The translations under genes and the position numbers were made by a program. A model generated the notes under the pieces. It worked only from the letters and a program-made list of their open reading frames with translations. It was not told the origin of the DNA and made no database searches. Positions 3,906-22,231 of a DNA stretch of 40,798 nucleotides are shown here, in pieces. The stretch's first letter is position 1. Every line of letters starts with the position of its first letter. The DNA comes from Deltaproteobacteria bacterium (GTDB lineage Bacteria > Desulfobacterota > GWC2-55-46 > UBA9637): NCBI GenBank assembly GCA_016219285.1, contig JACRNJ010000025.1, positions 1 to 40,798 on the forward strand, written 5' to 3'.

Positions 3906-4047
3906 GGAACCTCTGAAAAACTACCTTTTTTAAAATTGTCATGCCCGAATGTTTCTGTCGGGCATCCATAAGTCATTAAATTTACAAGAACTGGATTCCC
4001 GCTAAAAACATGCGGGAATGACATAAAAAGAGTTTTTCAGAGTGTCC
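3906..4047. mobile_element. 142-bp MITE, copy 1, inserted in the PIN toxin gene
   Basis: The element runs from GGAACCTCTGAAAAACT to AGTTTTTCAGAGTGTCC and is bounded by TTTA at 3902-3905 and 4048-4051. The terminal inverted repeats share CTCTGAAAAACT perfectly, with two differences outside. It contains two internal hairpins, TGCCCGA...TCGGGCA and ATTCCCGC...GCGGGAAT. A second copy of the same length, nearly identical inside, lies at 15825-15966. It is non-coding. Confidence 0.8.
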
Positions 4048-11142: not shown

Positions 11143-11221
11143 GTCATTCTATTCTAACGGTGAAGCCCGAAGCCTGTTCTGAGTGAACCAAAGGAGTTCA
11201 TCTCGCTTTGCTCGGAATGAC
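11143..11221. repeat. Inverted-repeat element with GTCATTC/GAATGAC ends
   Basis: The 79-bp segment starts GTCATTCTATTC and ends GCTCGGAATGAC, with AGTGAACC and GAGTTCATCTCG inside. It resembles the widespread small bacterial repeats that end in GTCATTC and GAATGAC. It is non-coding. Confidence 0.45.
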
Positions 11222-11245
11222 ATTTCCGTGCAATCAATTTATAAT

Positions 11246-11261
11246 TGTTCCACGTGGAACA
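11246..11261. promoter_or_regulatory. parS site 1 (ParB-binding)
   Basis: TGTTCCACGTGGAACA is a perfect 16-bp palindrome and a standard variant of the bacterial chromosomal parS consensus. It lies 30 bp upstream of mnmG and about 2.9 kb from parA. A second identical site is at 14009-14024. Confidence 0.93.
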
Positions 11262-11291
11262 ATATATAGAGGGACTGCGGCAAATATACTT

Positions 11292-13163
11292 ATGATAAAA
11301 GAGAATAATTACGATGTAATAGTTATCGGCGCTGGCCATGCTGGTTGTGAAGCAGCCATGGCTTGTGCAAAAATGGGGTTTAAAACCGTTGTCCTTACAA
11401 CTAACCTTGATACCATTGGACTCATGTCGTGCAATCCGGCAATAGGAGGAATTGCAAAAGGCCATCTTGTTAAAGAGATAGATGCCCTTGGCGGTGAGAT
11501 GGCAAGGAATATTGATGCCACCGGTATCCAATTCAGAACACTAAACATTAGCAACGGTCCGGCCGTAAGGGCAACAAGGGCGCAGGCAGACAGGCAATTA
11601 TACCGCCTCAGGATGAAATCTATCCTTGAATCACAAAAAAACCTGCATATCCGGCAGGCATTGGTTGAAAGGCTTATGGTGCAAGATGGGAAGATTGCCG
11701 GTGTAGAGACGAATATAGGTGAAATCTTTGAGAGCAGGGCGGTGATTATCACAACAGGCACCTTTTTAAGAGGATTGATTCATATAGGGCTTAATAATTT
11801 CCCCGGCGGCAGGGCAGGGGATATGCCATCTGTAAATCTTTCTCTAAGCCTTAAAGAGCTTGGTTTTAGGATGGGGAGGCTTAAAACAGGCACCTGTCCA
11901 CGGCTGGATGCCAAGACAATTGATTTTGCAAAACTGGAGATGCATGGCAGTGACCAAATACCTCCGCCATTTTCTTTTTCCACAAACAAGATTCAAAATA
12001 AGCAGATTCCCTGTTATATTACCTACACAAACACCGAAACCCACAACATCATAAAAGGAAATCTGGACCGTTCACCGCTTTACAGCGGGGTAATTCAAGG
12101 CGCCGGGCCGAGATATTGCCCGTCCATTGAGGACAAGGTTGTAAGATTTCCAGATAAAGGGAGACACCAGATATTCCTTGAACCGGAGGGTTATGATACT
12201 CAAGAAATATATCCAAACGGTCTTTCAACAAGCCTTCCGGTTGATGTTCAGGTAAAGTTTTTACGAACAATTACGGGGTTGGAACGTGTAGAGATTCTGC
12301 GCCCAGGGTATGCAATTGAATATGATTACGTTGAGCCGACACAGTTAAAAGCAACCCTTGAGACAAAGATGGTCGCCGGTCTTTATCTTGCAGGGCAGAT
12401 AAACGGCACCTCAGGATACGAAGAGGCGGCGGCACAGGGGATTATTGCAGGTATAAATGCTGGTTTAAAAATAAATGGCAAACCGCCGCTTTTACTTGAT
12501 AGGTCTGAGGCTTACATTGGTGTAATGATAGACGACCTTGTAACAAAGGGGACAAAAGAACCTTACAGGATGTTTACTTCAAGGGCAGAATACAGGCTTC
12601 TTTTAAGAGAGGATAACGCAGACTTGAGGCTGAGACATAAAGGCCATGAGGTTGGGCTTGTAAATGATGCGGATTATGGCGAATTTAAAACCAAAAAAAT
12701 GGCAATTACTTGCGAATTAAAAAAATTAGAGGATACAAAGATTGTGCCGACTGAAGATATAAACAATATGCTGAAAAGACTTGGGTTGGATGACATTAAA
12801 AAAGCTACAACTCTAAAAGAGCTTATCAGAAGACCATGTGTGCATTTACAAACCGTGTATGAATTTATGAATTGGCAGGATATGCCTGAACCAAAGGTAG
12901 TTGAGCAGATAGAGATAATGATTAAGTATGAAGGCTATATAAAGCAGCAGCAGGAGCAGATTGTAAGATTTAAGAAAATGGAAGAGATTAAAATACCCGC
13001 AAGCATATCTTTTAATGAAATAAACGGTCTTTCCAAAGAGGTTATGGAAAAGCTTGCGGCTATTAAGCCGGAATCCATAGGCCAGGCAGCGCGGATATCT
13101 GGCGTTACGCCGGCTGCTGTCTCAATGCTTTTAATACACTTGAAAAAGCAGGGCAGCATATAG
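11292..13163 (+). CDS. mnmG: tRNA uridine 5-carboxymethylaminomethyl modification enzyme MnmG (GidA)
   Basis: A 623-residue FAD protein that, with MnmE, installs the (carboxymethyl)aminomethyl group on U34 of tRNAs. The FAD-binding GAGHAG is at residues 13-18, and SCNPAIGG with the conserved C47 follows. [22 protein letters not shown] and [21 protein letters not shown] mark the middle, and the C-terminal helical MnmE-binding region is complete. ATG 11292 gives the usual N-terminus; an upstream in-frame ATG at 11208 would translate through the parS site. The ribosome site is weak. The gene heads the conserved origin-linked order mnmG-rsmG-parA-parB. No mnmE is in the window. Confidence 0.95.
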
Positions 13164-13173
13164 TGGATAGAAG

Positions 13174-13242
13174 AACCCACCCCTAACCCCCAAGAGGGGA
13201 ATAAAAAGAGTCCCCTCCTCGGAGGGGATAAAGGGGTGGGTT
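13174..13242. repeat. Large intergenic inverted repeat (CCCACCCC type)
   Basis: AACCCACCCCT (13174-13184) pairs perfectly with AGGGGTGGGTT (13232-13242). The interior carries further CCCC/GGGG hairpins, CCCCAAGAGGGG and TCCCCTCCTCGGAGGGG. It lies just after the mnmG stop and could act as a transcription attenuator before rsmG. Confidence 0.7.
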
Positions 13243-13280
13243 ATGCGTTTCTCCTAAATGCTATACGCTATCTTTCGACT

Positions 13281-13934
13281 ATGACAAGCAAAGAGCTAAA
13301 ACATATATTAAAGACAGGCGCAGCAGAACTTGGGATTACTGTGGGAGAAAGAGAAGCCGCTCTCTTCCTGAAATATCTTGCCGAACTAAAAGAATGGAAC
13401 AAAAAGATAAACCTTACGGCTATTACCGATGAGCGGGAGATTGTAATCAGACATTTTCTTGATTCGTTAACATTGGTTTCATTTCTTGCTAACAGGAAAA
13501 GTCTTCTTGATATGGGCTCTGGCGCCGGATTTCCAGGAATTCCGTTAAAAATTGTTCTTCCGGATTTAAAGATAACACTTATGGATTCTATCAATAAAAA
13601 GGTGGTTTTTATGAGGCACATCATAAGGATGCTTGGGCTTAAGAATATAGAAGCTGTTCAGGCAAGGGTGGAAGACCCTAAGAGCGTAAAGAAATTTGGG
13701 GCCTGTTTTGATGTTGTTACATCAAGGGCATTTGCAGAGCTTGGCAAATTTTTAGAATCGGCCTTACCATATGCAAAAAAAGGGGGTGCGCTTCTGGCAG
13801 TGAAAGGCCCCAAATGGAGTGAAGAGATAGGAGGGCTAAAAAAGTTTAAAGATATAGAATTTACTGGAACAAAACAATTAAGAATTCCATTTTCAGATAT
13901 TTTAACCACTATTCTAATCTTTAGAAAGGTATAA
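13281..13934 (+). CDS. rsmG: 16S rRNA (guanine527-N7)-methyltransferase
   Basis: A 217-residue SAM-dependent methyltransferase acting on G527 of 16S rRNA. It carries MGSGAGFPGIPL (78-89), the glycine-rich SAM loop; WNKKINLTAI near 39-48; and VTSRAFAELGKFLE near 145-158, all family signatures. ATG 13281 gives a start one or two turns before the first conserved helix. A GTG at 13236 lies inside a palindrome and is unlikely. No clear ribosome site precedes 13281, so it may be translationally weak or start elsewhere nearby. Confidence 0.92.
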   Translation: MTSKELKHILKTGAAELGITVGEREAALFLKYLAELKEWNKKINLTAITDEREIVIRHFLDSLTLVSFLANRKSLLDMGSGAGFPGIPLKIVLPDLKITLMDSINKKVVFMRHIIRMLGLKNIEAVQARVEDPKSVKKFGACFDVVTSRAFAELGKFLESALPYAKKGGALLAVKGPKWSEEIGGLKKFKDIEFTGTKQLRIPFSDILTTILIFRKV

Positions 13935-14008: not shown

Positions 14009-14024
14009 TGTTCCACGTGGAACA
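14009..14024. promoter_or_regulatory. parS site 2 (ParB-binding)
   Basis: TGTTCCACGTGGAACA, identical to the site at 11246-11261, lies about 150 bp upstream of parA. It is a nucleation site for the ParB partition complex. Confidence 0.93.
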
Positions 14025-14175: not shown

Positions 14176-14937
14176 ATGGCAAAGATAATAAGCATAGCGA
14201 ATCAAAAGGGTGGCGTGGGAAAAACTACGACTGCTGTAAATCTTTCCGCCTCCATTGCTGTTACAGAAAAAAAGGTTCTCCTTGTTGACTTTGATCCTCA
14301 GGGCAATACTACAAGCGGTGTAGGTATTACAAAGAATGGCTCAGGGTCTGATATATACCAGGTATTAATAAAATACAAAAGACTAAAAGAGGTTATTAAA
14401 GATACAGATATTGCGTTTCTCAAAACAGTCTCTTCTACAAGAGATCTGATTGGCGCTGAAGTGGAATTAATAGACGACCCGGCAAGAGAGCTCAAGCTAA
14501 AAGATGTTCTAAAGGAAGTCATCAATGATTACGACTATATCTTTATAGATTGTCCTCCTTCTTTAAGTCTTTTGACAGTAAATGCCTTAACTGCGGCGGA
14601 TTCGGTTATTATACCAATGCAGTGCGAATATTATGCCATGGAGGGCCTGTCTGAGCTTATGAATACTGTTGGCCTTATAAAAAAGAGGCTTAATCCAGCC
14701 TTAAAAATAGAAGGTATATTACTCACCATGTTTGATTCAAGAAATAACCTTGCCCATCAGGTAGCTCAAGAGGTAAAAACACATTTTCCTGATAAGGTTT
14801 TTAGGACCATCATACCAAGAAATGTCAAACTAAGCGAAAGTCCGAGTTTTGGCAAACCCGTGATACTTTACGATATAACATCTAAAGGCGCATTGAGCTA
14901 TATGGATCTGGCAAAGGAAATTCTTATGAAAAATTAA
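14176..14937 (+). CDS. parA: Chromosome-partitioning ATPase ParA (Soj)
   Basis: A 253-residue Walker-type ATPase. It carries the deviant Walker A KGGVGKTT (11-18) with the signature lysine K11, the VDFDPQGN switch around 37-44, and IFIDCPPSLSLLTVNAL near 118-135 (Walker B). There is no N-terminal HTH, so it is of the short chromosomal Soj type. It binds DNA nonspecifically when ATP-bound and moves ParB-parS complexes toward the poles. parB follows after 10 bp, and two parS sites flank mnmG-rsmG upstream. Confidence 0.95.
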   Translation: MAKIISIANQKGGVGKTTTAVNLSASIAVTEKKVLLVDFDPQGNTTSGVGITKNGSGSDIYQVLIKYKRLKEVIKDTDIAFLKTVSSTRDLIGAEVELIDDPARELKLKDVLKEVINDYDYIFIDCPPSLSLLTVNALTAADSVIIPMQCEYYAMEGLSELMNTVGLIKKRLNPALKIEGILLTMFDSRNNLAHQVAQEVKTHFPDKVFRTIIPRNVKLSESPSFGKPVILYDITSKGALSYMDLAKEILMKN

Positions 14938-14947
14938 GGGGTTAGAT

Positions 14948-15805
14948 ATGACAGTAAAAAGAAAGATTCTTGGCAAAGGTCTGGGTGCATTGATTCAGAA
15001 TGTTGAAACAACAGGGGATAATTATTTCCTTTGCTCCATAGATGAAATAAGCCCTAGCAAGGTTCAGCCGAGAAAGGATTTTAATGAGCAGCAACTCAAA
15101 GAGCTTTCTGATTCCATAAAGGGAAATGGTGTAATAGAGCCTCTTCTTGTCCGAAGGTCGGAAATTGGATACGAGCTTATAGCGGGTGAAAGAAGATGGC
15201 GCGCGGCAAGGCTTGCTGGGCTTAAGGAAGTTCCTGTTGTTGTAAGGGATGCCACAGATGAAGAAAGCCTCGAGATTGCCATTATAGAAAATATCCAAAG
15301 GGCTGATTTAAATCCAATAGAAGAGGCGTTAGCCTATAAAAACCTGATGGAAAAATTTGGACTTTCCCAGGATGAGATGGCAAAAAAGGTAGGCAAGGAA
15401 AGGGCAACGGTTGCCAATTATTTACGACTCCTTAAGCTTGCGCCGGAGGTAAAGGATGAATTGCAAAGAGGAGCAATATCAATGGGGCACGCCAAGGTTT
15501 TACTCAGCCTTGATGCCCATGCCGCTCAAAGAGATACCTGCAGAAAAATAATAGAGAAAGGGCTGTCTGTAAGAGATACCGAAGAGGCTGTAAAGCATTT
15601 TATAAAAGGCGGCAAAAAGGAGAAAGATTCTGAAGGCAGGAAGACAACACCACAGTTGAAATACGTTGAAGATGAGATGAGAAATATCTTTGGGACAAGG
15701 GTTTCGGTAAGAGAAAAAAAAGGTAAAGGCCGTTTTGAGATAGAATTTTATTCTTATGAGGAATTGGAACGGATATTGGAGATGTTGAGGAATATCAAAG
15801 GGTGA
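14948..15805 (+). CDS. parB: Chromosome-partitioning protein ParB (Spo0J), CTP-dependent clamp
   Basis: A 285-residue ParB. The N-terminus GKGLGALIQN resembles the ParA-interacting segment. The CTPase domain has IKGNGVIEPLLVR and the GERRWRA motif (80-86), then IENIQRADLNPIEEA (113-127). The HTH (about 139-165) reads parS, and a charged dimerisation domain ends the protein. An AAGGGG ribosome site precedes ATG 14948. It partners with parA and the parS sites at 11246 and 14009. A 142-bp MITE lies 19 bp downstream. Confidence 0.95.
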   Translation: MTVKRKILGKGLGALIQNVETTGDNYFLCSIDEISPSKVQPRKDFNEQQLKELSDSIKGNGVIEPLLVRRSEIGYELIAGERRWRAARLAGLKEVPVVVRDATDEESLEIAIIENIQRADLNPIEEALAYKNLMEKFGLSQDEMAKKVGKERATVANYLRLLKLAPEVKDELQRGAISMGHAKVLLSLDAHAAQRDTCRKIIEKGLSVRDTEEAVKHFIKGGKKEKDSEGRKTTPQLKYVEDEMRNIFGTRVSVREKKGKGRFEIEFYSYEELERILEMLRNIKG

Positions 15806-15824: not shown

Positions 15825-15966
15825 GGAACCTCTGAAAAACTACCTTTTTTAAAATTGTCATGCCCGAATGCTTCTGTCGGGCATCCATAAGTCATTAAAT
15901 TTACAAGAACTGGATTCCCGCTAAAAACATGCGGGAATGACATAAAAAGAGTTTTTCAGCACCCCG
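15825..15966. mobile_element. 142-bp MITE, copy 2
   Basis: Nearly identical to the copy at 3906-4047 from GGAACCTCTGAAAAACT to GAGTTTTTCAG. The last seven bases are diverged (CACCCCG). Flanking TTAA and TTAG may be a worn target duplication. The near-identity suggests fairly recent spread. Confidence 0.75.
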
Positions 15967-16298: not shown

Positions 16299-16670
16299 AT
16301 GTTTGGCAAAAAGGATAAAAAAAGAGTAGATTCTCAACAGATTAATGGGTTTATTGGAAAAGGAGTAACCATTACCGGAAAACTTATATTTGAAGGTTCT
16401 GTCAGGATTGATGGGAATTTTAAAGGTGAGATTGAGGCAATAAACGGAACACTTCTTGTTGGTGAAGGTGCAGTAATGGAGGCAACGGCGCTGATTGATA
16501 TTGCTATTATAAGCGGTGAATTCAGGGGAGATATTGAGGGCAAAAGCAAGATAGAACTAAGGGGGCCAGGGAGGATGTTTGGAAATATTAAAACCACAAA
16601 CCTTATTATCGGGGAGGGTGTAATATTTGAAGGAACATGCGAGATGGGCGATAAAAAGACGGATAATTAA
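16299..16670 (+). CDS. ccmA: Bactofilin (CcmA/BacM family cytoskeletal protein)
   Basis: A 123-residue protein consisting of one bactofilin beta-helix (about 17-112) with short charged ends. It shows the family repeat of glycine-turn strands: IGKGVTITGKLIFEGSVRID, GNFKGEIEA, GTLLVGEGAVMEA and GEFRGDIEG, with KIELRGPGRMFGNIKT toward the end. Bactofilins polymerise without nucleotide into nonpolar filaments at the membrane. They recruit cell-wall enzymes or, in Myxococcus, anchor ParABS. A strong AAGGAGG site precedes ATG 16299. Both kinds of partner are adjacent here: parAB upstream, and Csd6-like and Csd4-like wall enzymes downstream, the next beginning within 50 bp. Filament formation and shape control are inferred. 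Confidence 0.9.
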   Translation: MFGKKDKKRVDSQQINGFIGKGVTITGKLIFEGSVRIDGNFKGEIEAINGTLLVGEGAVMEATALIDIAIISGEFRGDIEGKSKIELRGPGRMFGNIKTTNLIIGEGVIFEGTCEMGDKKTDN

Positions 16671-16715
16671 GGGTTTATGGATACGGAAGACAAAAAGGCA
16701 GAGGTAATATTGATA

Positions 16716-18305
16716 ATGAAGGTGTTTTTTATAATAGGTTTTATTCTGTCTGTGGCGGCAAATAGCGCAGGATTTGTTTTTTCTGCTGATATTCAGGAAA
16801 ACTTTCATTCCAATGAAGCGGCAGCACAAGATTATAACGGAATCAATCCCCGATTAAAACCTTCGGAGACAGGTTTAGAAAACGGTCATTCCGTCAATGG
16901 CCTCATAGCTGATACAGTTTTACAAACTACCGTCCCTTCTTATTTTATCGAACTATGGGATTATGTCGTGCTTGTAGAAAAATCAACACAAAAACTTTAC
17001 CTCTACGACAAAGATTACAAATTGATAAAACTATTTAATATTACTACAGGCCTGCGTCAGGGTGACAAGAAAGGGATGGGCGACCTAAAAACCCCCGAAG
17101 GGATTTATTTTTTTACAATGGTTAAGGATGAAAGGGAACTGCTGCCGGAATACGGTGTTATGGCGCTGCCAATAAACTATCCAAATTTCATAGACACCAT
17201 CTTGCATAAGAATGGCAATGGAATATGGCTTCATGCAACTAATCAGCCTGCTCGGCCGTTAAAGCCATTCGATACGAGGGGATGTGTAGTGGCCGCCAAC
17301 GAGGACATTCTTGAACTTGCTGAATATATAAAACTTCAGACAACGCCAATGATAATAGTAGAGAAAATTGAATACGATACCTTTGAAAAGATAGCAAGCG
17401 CCCGCAATGGCATTAATCTGTTTGTTAAAAATTGGCAGACAAGCTGGGAAAATAAAGATATTGACAGCTACATGGATAGTTATTCAAAAAGTTTTAAGGC
17501 TAATGATATGGATTGGAAAAGCTGGAGAAAATATAAGGAGAGGCTTAATCGTCAATACAAGTACATAAATATTTCCTTATCAGATGTAAAGATTCTTCGC
17601 CATAACAATTATGCGGTTGCTTCATTTGTACAACGTTATAAAAACAATAAGTTAACAAACCTTGGAATTAAAAGATTATATCTTGTTTATGAGGAAGATA
17701 AGTGGAAAATAATTGGAGAGGAATGGAACCCGGTTCCTGCGCTTCAACCGGCAAATATTGCAAAAAGGTATGCCGCCATGAAAATGGCAAAACTTGAAAC
17801 CTCGCCAGATAAGACCGCAACGTTAGATAGAACATCTTTTCAACAGGCCAGTTTTGAGTCTCCTCCGGCTGAAAGTTCTTCTGCGACACAATCAATTGCT
17901 TCCAAAAAAACAACAACATTACCGGACCATGTAATTCAAAAAGAGCCACTTGCTTCTTCAAAAGAACAGACAATAGATATAGAAGGCTTTACCATAGATA
18001 GAGAAAAGGCGGGAAACAAGATTAGATTCAAACTAGTAAATAAAACCATGGAACAATATAAGATCTCAGGCAGGCTGGCCATTATAGCGACAAATAGAAA
18101 CGATAAAGGGATACGCTACACGTCATATCCGCCAATGATACTTGAACAGGGTACTCCCAAGAATTTTAAGAAAGGTGAATGGTTTTCCATACGACGGTTT
18201 AAGATTGTAAATGGAGAGGTAGAAGAAAGGCTCGTTAACCATGTTGTTGTGATGGTCTATTCCAATACTGGCGAGTTGCTGCTTCAAAAAGAATTTCCGA
18301 TATAA
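16716..18305 (+). CDS. Csd6/Pgp2-like periplasmic L,D-carboxypeptidase or transpeptidase (YkuD plus NTF2-like)
   Basis: This 529-residue protein starts at ATG 16716, preceded by GAGG; an in-frame ATG at 16677 adds 13 acidic residues ahead of the signal peptide. Residues 1-24 form the signal peptide. A YkuD domain spans about 80-215: VVLVEKSTQKLYLYDKD, GDLKTPEGIYFF, the conserved H173 in IWLHATNQ and the nucleophile C190 in DTRGCVV. An NTF2-like domain follows (about 232-357: FVKNWQTSWENKDIDSYMDSY to YLVYEEDKWKIIGEEW). YkuD followed by NTF2-like is the architecture of H. pylori Csd6 and C. jejuni Pgp2, which trim tetrapeptides to tripeptides. A Ser/Thr-rich linker (about 362-427) and an extra beta-rich C-terminal domain (429-529) are additions. 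Its neighbours are the bactofilin upstream and a Csd4-like enzyme downstream. Confidence 0.82.
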   Translation: MKVFFIIGFILSVAANSAGFVFSADIQENFHSNEAAAQDYNGINPRLKPSETGLENGHSVNGLIADTVLQTTVPSYFIELWDYVVLVEKSTQKLYLYDKDYKLIKLFNITTGLRQGDKKGMGDLKTPEGIYFFTMVKDERELLPEYGVMALPINYPNFIDTILHKNGNGIWLHATNQPARPLKPFDTRGCVVAANEDILELAEYIKLQTTPMIIVEKIEYDTFEKIASARNGINLFVKNWQTSWENKDIDSYMDSYSKSFKANDMDWKSWRKYKERLNRQYKYINISLSDVKILRHNNYAVASFVQRYKNNKLTNLGIKRLYLVYEEDKWKIIGEEWNPVPALQPANIAKRYAAMKMAKLETSPDKTATLDRTSFQQASFESPPAESSSATQSIASKKTTTLPDHVIQKEPLASSKEQTIDIEGFTIDREKAGNKIRFKLVNKTMEQYKISGRLAIIATNRNDKGIRYTSYPPMILEQGTPKNFKKGEWFSIRRFKIVNGEVEERLVNHVVVMVYSNTGELLLQKEFPI

Positions 18306-18359
18306 AATGGGCAAAAGAGCATATAATAGCCACTGCAGCAATTATGATATTTTTGTTGG

Positions 18360-20210
18360 ATGCGTATCGTGAAAAAACTCAGCATATATACGCTCGTAAC
18401 TGTATTTTTTCTTATGTTTTTTATCGGTAATGGGTTTTGTAAAACCGAACATGAGGTCTATTTTAAAGATACTCCATATGAGCTGAATGTTTACAAAATA
18501 TACGGCACTGAAAAAGGCAATACCCTTATGATAATAGGCGGCATACAGGGTGATGAGCCTGGCGGGTACCTTTCGGCAGACCTTTATGCAGATATGGCCC
18601 TTCGCAAAGGGAATTTAATTGTTGTGCCGCGCGCCAATTTCCTTTCCATAATAAAACATAAAAGGGCAATAAACTGGGACATGAACAGGCGGTTTGCGCC
18701 TATTAACAACAAGAATTATTATGAGGACAAGATTGTAGAAATACTTAAAGACCTAATGGCCCAGAGCGATTATCTTCTTAACCTTCACGAAGGCTCAGGT
18801 TTCTTTTTGGAAAACTGGGAGAGCGATTTAAAAAATCCCATGCGGTTTGGTCAGTCTATAATCGCAGATGCAGACATATATTATTCAAAGGAAAAGGGTG
18901 CAGATGTTCTTCTTGGAGATACAGCAAGAAAGATAGCAGGCCGCGTAAATGAAATGATAGATAATAAACAGCATCATTTCAGGTTTAACAATCATAGAAC
19001 TTTTGAAAAAAATACCGGCCATCCTGAACAGAAGAGATCGGCAACCTTCTACGCCCTGTCAACCTATGGAATACCTGCATTTGGCATAGAGATATCTAAA
19101 GAGATAAAAGACATTGAGACAAAGGTAAGGATGCAGACGATGGTTATTAACTCATTTATGAATGAGTTTGGCATTATATCTGAAAATCCAAAGGTAGCGT
19201 TGGTGTCGCCGAAGCTTAAATACTTAATTGTATCAGTCAATGGTTTGCAGAATATCCTGGTCAGAGATGGAGGCGAGATAAAAGTAAGAAAGGGGGACAG
19301 AATAAAGATTTCTCAGATAGAGGCCAATTATGAACGTGGGTTGAGTGTAGATATTATTGGGAAGGGCACTGCAAATGATTATAATAAAGAGTTTGAGATT
19401 GAAGGCCCGACAAAGGCATTTATAAGAAAAGATAACCTTAAGTGCGGCGAGGTAAATATATCTGTCGCGGATTCGAAGTTTGGAGTTTTGACTTCGAAAT
19501 TAAACGATTCTAACAATTACGCAGAAGTTTTAAAAGAGCAATCCGCAAAACCTCCCAAATTTCAATATATAATACTAGAGGTTAATGGCTTAAGGCAGGT
19601 CCTTTCTAATGCAGAGCATTTAAAGATTATAAAAGGGGATGGCATAAGACTGTTAGATGTTGTTGCGCAAGGGGTAAATGCAGGCGAGCTAACTGTAAAT
19701 TTTCTCGGTTTTGTAGGCAATAAAATTAAAAACAGCGGAGAAGACAGGGGCTATCTTATCAATACAGCCAAAGACTTATGGGTAAAATATTCAAAAAGCG
19801 GCAAAGACCTTGAGTACATGATTGCAATAAACTATAAGGATAAAAAGTTTGGAGAGGTTTTTATTGATATAGAAGAACCAAAACTAAATTACATAGTGGT
19901 TAGACATGGTCAGGGCGGTCAACGATGGTATGCCAATGGAGATACTATATCTGTTACTGTAAGGGATGTCCTGGAAGTTGTAGATATAAAAACCAATGTT
20001 AATGGAAATATAGGCGTAAAGGTGAATGTTTCCGGGGCCGAGCTGAGCGGCAAAAATAAGGTTATAACCTTTAATAAAAATCACACCGCAAATAGAAATG
20101 ATGCAATAGTGATAACAAGAGAAGGGATGATTATAGGTAAAGCAAAGATACAAATTGGAGAAGCGGTGACAGCAAAAAATAGAAATCTGAAATTAGGAAA
20201 CAGAAATTAG
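18360..20210 (+). CDS. Csd4/Pgp1-like D,L-carboxypeptidase (M99/M14 family) with C-terminal beta repeats
   Basis: A 616-residue secreted protein: signal peptide 1-26, then a carboxypeptidase domain to about 270. The metal site reads GGIQGDEPGG with Q63 and E66, then LNLHEGSG with H143; a likely catalytic glutamate is E244 in AFGIEISKE. Glutamine in place of the usual first histidine ligand is the published hallmark of Helicobacter Csd4, which trims peptidoglycan tripeptides to dipeptides and sets helical shape. After residue 280, three tandem beta-rich units begin LKYLIVSVNG, FQYIILEVNG and LNYIVVRHGQ, each followed by GD-I segments. They look like Ig-like or barrel modules. ATG 18360 was taken; a GTG at 18369 is equally possible. 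Tandem placement after a Csd6-like gene and a bactofilin supports the assignment. Confidence 0.82.
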   Translation: MRIVKKLSIYTLVTVFFLMFFIGNGFCKTEHEVYFKDTPYELNVYKIYGTEKGNTLMIIGGIQGDEPGGYLSADLYADMALRKGNLIVVPRANFLSIIKHKRAINWDMNRRFAPINNKNYYEDKIVEILKDLMAQSDYLLNLHEGSGFFLENWESDLKNPMRFGQSIIADADIYYSKEKGADVLLGDTARKIAGRVNEMIDNKQHHFRFNNHRTFEKNTGHPEQKRSATFYALSTYGIPAFGIEISKEIKDIETKVRMQTMVINSFMNEFGIISENPKVALVSPKLKYLIVSVNGLQNILVRDGGEIKVRKGDRIKISQIEANYERGLSVDIIGKGTANDYNKEFEIEGPTKAFIRKDNLKCGEVNISVADSKFGVLTSKLNDSNNYAEVLKEQSAKPPKFQYIILEVNGLRQVLSNAEHLKIIKGDGIRLLDVVAQGVNAGELTVNFLGFVGNKIKNSGEDRGYLINTAKDLWVKYSKSGKDLEYMIAINYKDKKFGEVFIDIEEPKLNYIVVRHGQGGQRWYANGDTISVTVRDVLEVVDIKTNVNGNIGVKVNVSGAELSGKNKVITFNKNHTANRNDAIVITREGMIIGKAKIQIGEAVTAKNRNLKLGNRN

Positions 20211-20244: not shown

Positions 20245-21159
20245 GTGGAAAAAACCCAAAAAATCTGGATGCATGGAAAATTCATAAAATGGGATGATGC
20301 AAATGTCCATATCCTGACGCACACATTACATTATGGCCTCGGTGTATTTGAGGGCATCCGTTGTTACAAATGCGAAAATGGAAAATCTGCCGTATTCAGG
20401 CTCAAAGAACATACGGACAGGCTTTTTGAATCAGCGCATATAGTGCAAATTGAAATCCCGTATACAAGGGACGAGATAAATAAGGCCATCATTGAAACCC
20501 TGAAAATAAATAGTTTGAAGCAAGGCTATATAAGGCCTTTGGTTTATCTGGCTGAAGGCAGTATGGGCATCTATCCAAAGGAAAACCCTGTAAAGGTTGC
20601 AATCGCTGTTTGGAACTGGGGCGCTTACCTTGGTGAAAAGGGGCTCAAAGAAGGGATAAGGGTAAAAATTTCTTCATTCACTCGGCATCATGTGAATGTA
20701 GGCATGACAAAGGCAAAGGTTGTTGGAAACTATGTAAATTCCATTCTGGCAAAGCGCGAAGTTTTTGCTAATGGCTACGATGAAGCCCTGTTGCTTGACA
20801 CAGACGGTTATGTATCAGAGGGGAGCGGGGAAAATATCTTTATTGTAAAAGACGGCATTTTAAAAACTACGCCCTTAACATCCGTTTTAAAAGGGATTAC
20901 CAGAGATTCTGTCATAAAAATTGCAAAAGATAAAGGCATCACTGTGCTGGAAGGCAGATTTAGCCGAGATGAACTCTATACAGCGGACGAGGCATTCTTC
21001 ACAGGCACTGCGGCAGAGATAACACCTATCAGAGAAGTGGATAACAGAAAGATCGGCCAAGGCAAACCAGGGCCTGTGACCAAAACGATTCAGGAGACAT
21101 TTTTTAATATTGTGAAAGGGAAAGAGAAGAAATACGAAGCGTGGCTGACGTATGTGTAG
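20245..21159 (+). CDS. ilvE: Branched-chain amino acid aminotransferase
   Basis: A 304-residue fold-type IV PLP enzyme that interconverts Leu/Ile/Val with their 2-oxoacids. It starts at GTG 20245 after AGGAGGAGC. Features: [17 protein letters not shown] near 25-41, [13 protein letters not shown] near 96-108, the PLP lysine K158 in [12 protein letters not shown], and [18 protein letters not shown] with the phosphate-binding GITRDSV and [10 protein letters not shown]. Length and motifs match IlvE of the type used in many deep-branching bacteria. Its 3' end overlaps the next gene by eight bases. Confidence 0.93.
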
Positions 21160-22231
21160 ATTATTACTTGTTCTTATTACAAGTATTTTGGTCGGTCAAA
21201 TGAGCATGGTAAATTCTGAGGATATAAAAACCCCAGCACAAAAATTGGAGAAGGCAACCTTTGCAGGCGGTTGCTTCTGGTGCATGGAGCCTCCATTTGC
21301 TTCATTAAAGGGAGTAATGTCCATTGCTGTGGGATACACTGGCGGCCATGATAAAAACCCTACTTACGAGGAAGTATCTTCAGGGGTTACTGGCCATACA
21401 GAGGCTATTGAAATACTCTATGACACTGCGCAAGTTACCTATTCAGAGCTTTTGGATGTCTTCTGGAGAAATATTGACCCAACCACTGCCAATCAGCAAT
21501 TTGTGGACATAGGCGCTCAATACAGGACAGCCATTTTTTACCATAGTGAAGAACAGAGGCGTCTGGCTGAAAAATCAAAGACAAAACTGGAAAAATCAGG
21601 CAAGTTTGATAAACCGATTGTTACGGAAATAAAACCAGCCACAACATTTTATAAGGCAGAAGATTACCACCAAAAATATTATGAGAAAAATCCCATCCGT
21701 TATAAATTCTATAGATATAATTCAGGCAGAGACCGGTATCTTGAAAAGATATGGGGAGGCAAGACAGAGATTAAGAACACAGAGCAAAAGAAATACAGCA
21801 AACCATCTGTAGACGAGCTAAAGAAAAAGCTAACCCCCCTGCAGTATAAGGTTACGCAGGAAAATGGCACAGAAAGGGCCTTTGACAACGAATACTGGAA
21901 CAACAAAAAACAAGGGATATATGTTGATATTGTATCAGGAGAGCCGCTCTTCAGTTCCATTGATAAATTTGATTCAGGCACAGGCTGGCCGAGCTTTACA
22001 AAACCACTTGAGCCTGAAAATATTATTGAAAAAGAAGACAGAAGCTTCTTTACGACACGGACAGAGGTGCGCAGCAAGCAGGCAGGCTCTCATCTTGGCC
22101 ATATATTCCATGACGGTCCAAAACCTGATGGACTCCGCTACTGCATGAACTCGGCAGCCCTTCGCTTTATTCCAAAAGAAGATTTGGAAAAGAAAGGATA
22201 TGAAGCATATAAGAAACTTTTTGAGAAGTAG
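21152..22231 (+). CDS. msrAB: Secreted bifunctional methionine sulfoxide reductase MsrA-MsrB
   Basis: A 359-residue fusion that reduces both stereoisomers of methionine sulfoxide. Residues 1-22 look like a signal peptide, so it probably repairs periplasmic proteins. MsrA (33-200) has the catalytic C41 in [11 protein letters not shown] and the [25 protein letters not shown] signature split over 61-85. MsrB (222-359) has [20 protein letters not shown] split over 263-282 and the catalytic C331 in [12 protein letters not shown]. The MsrB CxxC zinc ligands are absent (VDIVSGEP where zinc forms have a cysteine), so this is the zinc-free form. A dedicated electron donor domain is lacking, unlike Neisseria PilB. 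The start overlaps ilvE. Confidence 0.92.

Follow-up and report, generated by a model that had tools for sequence, protein, structure and literature searches.

The stretch of DNA analysed here, called the window throughout, is the contig JACRNJ010000025.1 (40,798 nucleotides) of assembly GCA_016219285.1 from an uncultured member of the Desulfobacterota, related to sulfate-reducing bacteria and listed as Deltaproteobacteria bacterium, whose genome of 2.28 Mb is 99% complete and of which the window represents one contig. Three consecutive genes on its plus strand code for a bactofilin, a YkuD protein with an NTF2 domain and a carboxypeptidase of the M99 family, as an original prediction made from the letters had described; all three matches lie above the Pfam cut-offs, and family searches of the genome, from which the copy numbers are taken, returned exactly one match per family, in each case at this locus. 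The nearest named relatives are the uncultured "Deltaproteobacteria" RIFCSPHIGHO2_02_FULL_43_33 (72% identity of the M99 protein) and GWC2_42_11 (55%). The three genes are as follows.

16299..16670, plus strand: bactofilin of 123 amino acids (PF04519, E 1.6e-22)
16677..18305, plus strand: YkuD-NTF2 protein, predicted to be exported, with an additional C-terminal beta-domain (PF03734, PF24125)
18360..20210, plus strand: M99 (Csd4/Pgp1-type) carboxypeptidase, predicted to be exported, with C-terminal beta-domains (PF17033)

The bactofilin scores 80 bits against a cut-off of 27.9, is preceded by an AGGAGG ribosome site and shows neither a strong N-terminal hydrophobic segment nor an export signal, as is required of the family. 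The YkuD-NTF2 protein starts with a hydrophobic segment predicted to direct export and has the architecture of Csd6, Pgp2 and Bd1075, namely a YkuD domain bearing the catalytic His and Cys residues (PF03734, E 2e-18) followed by a Csd6-type NTF2 domain (PF24125, Cds6_C, E 6e-20). Its catalytic pair is H186/C203 when counted from the first ATG (16677) and is invariant among 20 homologues; the numbering H173/C190 of the original prediction holds from an alternative in-frame ATG at 16716. By sequence, the best solved relative is 7O21 (E 2e-54), the L,D-carboxypeptidase Bd1075 of Bdellovibrio, which reaches the outer curve of the cell by means of its NTF2 domain (PMC8938487), while Pgp2 and Csd6 follow far behind (E 1e-21 to 5e-21). 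The former label "Csd6-like" is apt for the family, and Bd1075 is closer than Csd6 among the solved relatives. A weak match to the DpaA model NF040599 (E 4e-4) stays below the cut-off. Many of the YkuD proteins of relatives (L056, L058, L085 and others) carry two tandem NTF2-like domains in place of the NTF2 domain plus extra C-terminal domain of the window protein, and one genome of the same order (G010) contains three more Csd6-type NTF2 domains on contigs C85, C122 and C150, in open frames of 757-911 amino acids.

The third protein matches PF17033 with an E value of 1e-27 (97.7 bits against a cut-off of 27), and its best relatives in the PDB are the Csd4 structures 4WCK/4Q6M, both by sequence (E 2e-21) and by predicted fold (E 7e-27; model with a predicted local distance difference test value, pLDDT, of 84). 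It shows the Gln-x-x-Glu ... His metal site plus catalytic Glu: the residues Q63, E66 and H143, correctly named before, and the presumed base E244 correspond to Gln46, Glu49, His128 and Glu222 of Csd4 (PMC4220969). E66, H143 and E244 are invariant in 20 homologues, and position 63 is mostly Gln, replaced by His in the remotest homologues. The profile searches accordingly bear out the M99 and Csd6-type assignments of the two enzymes, and the designation of the three genes as a cell-shape module is well supported, as a gene set, by family membership and synteny. Csd4 homologues with more than 50% similarity have been reported only in curved or helical bacteria (PMC3310797), a similarity that is not a value for the M99 protein of the window. 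In relatives, XrtA/PEP-CTERM-type (TIGR03015-like) ATPases have a C-terminal beta repeat of this protein (residues ~390-506) as their own C-terminal domain, at 42-50% identity (L029 295-1845, L030 376-1908); it is possibly a shared wall-binding domain. In the Delta 4 endosymbiont of Olavius algarvensis (L079 9905-12091), M99 and bactofilin share one open frame of 728 amino acids; either this is a real fusion, which would place the bactofilin in the periplasm, or it reflects a sequence or assembly error.

A view on the gene neighbourhoods of related M99 genes shows that the combination recurs far beyond the window. The loci considered are the best 80 of 440 obtained with an M99 alignment as query (a single-sequence M99 query of the genome contigs matched nothing); they stem mostly from Desulfobacterota, and also from Nitrospirota, Latescibacterota, KSB1 and Neomarinimicrobiota. 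Of these loci, 52 include both flanks of M99; its immediate neighbours there comprise a Csd6-type gene in 44 cases and a bactofilin gene in 27. The arrangement seen most often is YkuD-NTF2 – X – M99 – bactofilin, where X is a further gene described below, and in many genomes the bactofilin follows immediately 3' of M99, often with short or negative spacing. A survey of 197 Desulfobacterota genomes of at least 90% completeness, given as raw counts that ignore shared ancestry, recorded M99 in 41 genomes and the Csd6-type NTF2 domain in 51, with 39 genomes having the two together; 28 of the 41 M99 domains have a Csd6-type NTF2 domain within 3.5 kb.

Protein X, of 200-350 residues, is encoded between YkuD and M99 in most relatives, including all four members of the window's family, and matched neither a Pfam family above cut-off nor any NCBIfam model. 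An AlphaFold2 model of the protein from locus L053, built with 50 sequences, predicts a hairpin (residues 5-11/17-23), a helix (24-83) which includes a membrane span, a disordered linker and a beta-domain (130-240), with a mean pLDDT of 86 and values of 86-98 for the hairpin/helix part. The beta-hairpin, membrane helix and coiled coil repeat the layout of LmdC, with the hairpin placed on the cytoplasmic side as judged from topology. A fold search against the PDB returned generic beta-sandwich matches alone, none of them at E <1e-3. X has not been filed as LmdC proper, because its C-terminal part is this beta-domain and not an M23 peptidase domain. In the window genome, the C-terminal beta-domain of the YkuD protein is related to the C-domain of X. 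The family relatives possess both this fused X-type domain on YkuD and a separate X, and therefore the lineage of the window appears to have lost the separate gene.

Nitrospirae bacterium MYbin6 (L055 7519-11800) has, one after another, genes for an M23 peptidase whose N-terminus resembles that of LmdC, for two bactofilins from different clades, for X and for M99, so that both kinds of bactofilin-hydrolase module occur together at this locus. The M99 protein of MYbin6 branches, with a support of 0.70, beside those of the window's order, the second of the two bactofilins falls with the type linked to parAB, and parAB was not found within the fetched flanks, showing that bactofilin, X and M99 can co-occur without these genes. 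Of the six M23 matches in the window genome, one (L190; G000 contig C31, around 698-985) has an LmdC-like N-terminus (KKSFFTVFIVPQDPSHIRKFRLPGK..) and lies away from the bactofilin; it is a candidate for a second bactofilin partner.

As judged from a tree of 69 bactofilins, 39 of the 40 sequences encoded 3' of M99 form one clade (support 0.93), and the par-linked bactofilins, including that of the window, form a separate one (support 0.97); the proteins are short and the deep branches uncertain, but the two groups are nonetheless distinct. Since the bactofilins joined to M99 fall into two clades, the association arose more than once according to the tree, and such a repeated, independent association of one enzyme set with different bactofilins speaks for a functional link between them.

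The par genes mentioned above lie upstream of the three genes, in a block whose further features are listed here.

11208..13163, plus strand: mnmG (gidA), first gene of the conserved block (open reading frame; class-wide gene order)
11246..11261, strand not applicable: parS-like palindrome TGTTCCACGTGGAACA, with 2 mismatches to the consensus
13236..13934, plus strand: rsmG (gidB) (open reading frame; class-wide gene order)
14009..14024, strand not applicable: second copy of the parS-like palindrome TGTTCCACGTGGAACA, from a palindrome scan
14176..14937, plus strand: parA (PF13614, E 1.7e-67)
14948..15805, plus strand: parB (PF17762, E 9e-39; PF02195, E 2e-33; TIGR00180 above cut-off)
15832..15959, in the parB-bactofilin gap: element of 128 bp resembling a miniature inverted-repeat transposable element (MITE), with perfect 10-bp inverted ends CTGAAAAACT/AGTTTTTCAG
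20245..21159, plus strand: ilvE, downstream edge of the conserved block (NF005146 above cut-off)

With parA, parB and two parS-like sites in the window (0.16 expected by chance) close to rsmG and mnmG, a genuine ParABS system is present. The three genes had been placed directly after it, which is correct as to the upstream position of ParABS, but parB and the bactofilin gene are 493 bp apart, with the MITE-like element in between; 33 bp of this element recur exactly at 3991-4023 of the window. Promoter-like sites between 13900 and 20400 occur at chance level and terminator-like sites slightly above it. The open reading frame adjoining ilvE (21152-22231) resembles, by eye, an MsrA-MsrB methionine sulfoxide reductase fusion.

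The order mnmG-rsmG-parA-parB-bac is conserved in the class to which the window belongs: the bactofilin gene stands 3' of parB in all 20 genomes examined, and where the contig extends far enough, the gene that follows it is in most cases ilvE. The interval between bactofilin and ilvE is empty in some genomes, contains a YkuD protein without the NTF2 domain in three genomes of family f4 (L165, L166, L176) or one with a weak NTF2-like tail in L175, and accommodates YkuD-NTF2 together with M99 in the window's order, to which the Csd6-type NTF2 domain is restricted within the class except for one match below cut-off. Because the content of this interval varies and the Csd6-type NTF2 domain stays within one order, the parA-parB-bactofilin-ilvE skeleton is most likely the older arrangement, into which the enzymes would have been added between bactofilin and ilvE. 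The expected synteny in relatives is thus real and nested, the linkage of parB and bactofilin being class-wide and the insertion of the enzymes confined to the window's order. All four family relatives with contig coverage keep parAB-bac-ykuD-(X)-M99, two of them with additional sequence separating parB from bac. G008, a relative at the level of the order, has bac-ykuD-M99; its contig continues for 2.6 kb further upstream, and no parAB was found in that part. Three genomes of the same genus (G002-G004) without an M99 gene, bactofilin or Csd6-type domain were considered as a natural loss experiment and not used, parB being equally not found in them and missing contigs being the likelier cause. 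In Candidatus Neomarinimicrobiota (L127 987-7066), parA-parB and a bactofilin gene are divergent from YkuD-NTF2-M99, apparently a separate par-adjacent case.

The three genes probably constitute a bactofilin-associated module for cell wall editing, in which the trimming of stem peptides from tetra- over tri- to dipeptides would be localised by the bactofilin. Most likely, the exported YkuD-NTF2 protein removes the terminal D-alanine from stem tetrapeptides to yield tripeptides, by analogy with Bd1075, Csd6 and Pgp2, and the M99 enzyme would then remove meso-diaminopimelate from the tripeptides to yield dipeptides, as Csd4 and Pgp1 do. A bactofilin polymer at the inner face of the membrane would mark the trimming site and make the process local. 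Such local trimming would reshape the sacculus, with curvature as the most plausible outcome; the curved or helical shape assumed before is plausible and agrees with the findings on Csd4, Csd6 and Bd1075, as characterised relatives have known activities and shape phenotypes (PMC8938487, PMC3310797, PMC4220969, PMC3961634). In most relatives, the bitopic protein X would be the likely tether, its predicted cytoplasmic beta-hairpin binding the bactofilin and its periplasmic beta-domain retaining the enzymes or attaching to the cell wall; the genome of the window has no X, and an X-related periplasmic domain is fused to its YkuD enzyme. Chances are about even that YkuD-NTF2 – X – M99 – bactofilin represents a widespread, undescribed morphogenetic operon in which X acts as a non-enzymatic transmembrane adaptor with an LmdC-type cytoplasmic hairpin that recruits both the L,D- and the D,L-carboxypeptidase to filaments of bactofilin, and that this operon came together on at least two occasions with different bactofilins, one of them the par-linked type found in the window's class. 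The pairing of YkuD and M99 itself is already published, as Frirdich et al. (2014; PMC3961634) note pgp1-pgp2 gene pairs in four genomes, but no report of their link to bactofilin and X, of a bactofilin-Csd4-Csd6 operon, or of Csd4 in Deltaproteobacteria was found in the open-access literature. The observation of the three genes is confirmed and the module reading sound, and the recurrent operon with X is the more interesting result.

Several points weigh against a localised trimming module. No bactofilin adjoins M99 in 25 of the 52 loci, and 13 of the 41 M99 domains in the Desulfobacterota survey lack a neighbouring Csd6-type NTF2 domain at the 3.5-kb limit. The 493-bp gap with its mobile-element relic may split the transcription of parAB and the module. 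The N-terminus of X compared with one M23 protein of the window genome gives a non-significant 8.3 bits, so X was not taken as an M23 homologue by sequence and its link to LmdC rests on predicted topology; moreover, a separate X was not found in the window genome, where the YkuD C-domain is the sole X-like match, and the proposed tether is not directly applicable there. The YkuD fold also includes transpeptidases, and YkuD enzymes can detach Braun's lipoprotein; the sequence does not separate these activities from that of a carboxypeptidase. A role of the YkuD-NTF2 protein as L,D-transpeptidase or as a DpaA-type hydrolase detaching Braun's lipoprotein, as hinted at by the breadth of the fold and the NF040599 match below cut-off, nevertheless appears very unlikely, because the NTF2-containing relatives with assayed activity, Bd1075, Csd6 and Pgp2, are L,D-carboxypeptidases (PMC8938487) and outrank all other matches by a wide margin, and the neighbouring M99 enzyme needs a tripeptide substrate (PMC3961634).

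The missing bactofilins in about half of the M99 operons, together with a parB-bac adjacency that predates the insertion of the enzymes, would also suit enzymes serving general peptidoglycan turnover, recycling or stress remodelling beside a bactofilin gene that reflects inherited gene order. This is unlikely in view of the two bactofilin clades that joined the enzymes independently and the tight placement of bactofilin directly 3' of M99 in many genomes, and in both enzyme families the characterised members have a role in cell shape (PMC8938487, PMC3310797, PMC3961634). The further proposal that the bactofilin interacts with ParABS as well as with the wall enzymes, tying trimming spatially to chromosome segregation, could draw on the same-strand order parA-parB-bac-ykuD-M99 in the window and its family relatives, on the invariable parB-bac adjacency in the class, on the Neomarinimicrobiota case and on the scaffolding of ParA by BacNOP in Myxococcus (PMC5703909). 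However, most M99-YkuD operons lie away from parAB, the enzymes also pair with other bactofilins at such sites, MYbin6 combines a par-type bactofilin with X and M99 and G008 retains bac-ykuD-M99, both with no parAB in the flanks examined, and the parB-bac adjacency is the class default, persisting in genomes without the enzymes. The statement that Myxococcus bactofilins scaffold ParABS applies to BacNOP, but the par-adjacent bactofilin there is bacM, at a different locus (same source). Because the par link is older and persists without the enzymes, and because ParABS scaffolding in Myxococcus was shown for BacNOP rather than BacM, the adjacency of parAB is not taken as evidence of coupling; this part of the original prediction is unsupported beyond adjacency, and such coupling seems distinctly unlikely.

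The proposed localised trimming module bears on a wider question, since the steering of periplasmic wall enzymes by bactofilins is known mainly for M23 endopeptidases (LmdC, Csd1), and an established tether for the carboxypeptidases that curve Helicobacter, Campylobacter and Bdellovibrio was not found in the open-access literature. Operons in which the scaffold, both enzymes and a candidate tether are encoded together suggest a specific protein as the possibly missing membrane partner and predict which part binds what. They also offer many natural variants, with X separate, with X absent and its domain fused to YkuD, or with the bactofilin 5' or 3' of the enzymes, and caution that adjacency to parAB alone should not be taken as functional coupling.

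Among known systems, the bacM gene of Myxococcus xanthus lies immediately 3' of parAB, as do the bactofilin genes of the window's whole class, but no wall carboxypeptidases are described there in the available part of PMC5703909. The pgp1-pgp2 pairs of Nitratiruptor, Nautilia, a Desulfococcus and Persephonella resemble the window in having M99 and YkuD genes within 300 bp, whereas bactofilin, X and parAB are not mentioned in the available part of the report (PMC3961634). In the BacA-LmdC systems of Hyphomonas and Rhodospirillum, a bactofilin gene likewise adjoins that of a wall-hydrolase partner, an M23 endopeptidase, and a cytoplasmic hairpin of LmdC binds the bactofilin and thereby recruits LmdC (PMC10945521). 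The X proteins of the relatives share the predicted layout of hairpin, membrane helix, coiled coil and periplasmic domain, but end in a beta-domain instead of an M23 peptidase, are encoded with carboxypeptidases and are absent from the window genome. Csd5 of Helicobacter, a single-pass adaptor between CcmA and peptidoglycan whose short cytoplasmic N-terminus contacts the bactofilin and whose periplasmic part is an SH3 domain (PMC9448923), is similar to X in layout, the feature compared here, and differs from X in the coiled coil and the C-terminal beta-domain of the latter. Among solved structures, Bd1075 comes nearest to the YkuD-NTF2 protein, and it gives the cell a vibrioid form by way of its NTF2 domain (PMC8938487); the window protein differs in its extra beta-domain at the C-terminus and in being encoded together with M99 and a bactofilin. 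Finally, Pgp2/Csd6, Pgp1/Csd4 and CcmA of Campylobacter and Helicobacter represent the same three families with the same catalytic residues and the same predicted order of tetra- to tri- to dipeptide trimming. In contrast to the window, where the genes are contiguous, those of C. jejuni are dispersed (0915, 1104, 1344; PMC3961634), and the window proteins are distinguished by a longer set of C-terminal beta-domains on M99 and by the extra X-type C-terminal domain on YkuD.

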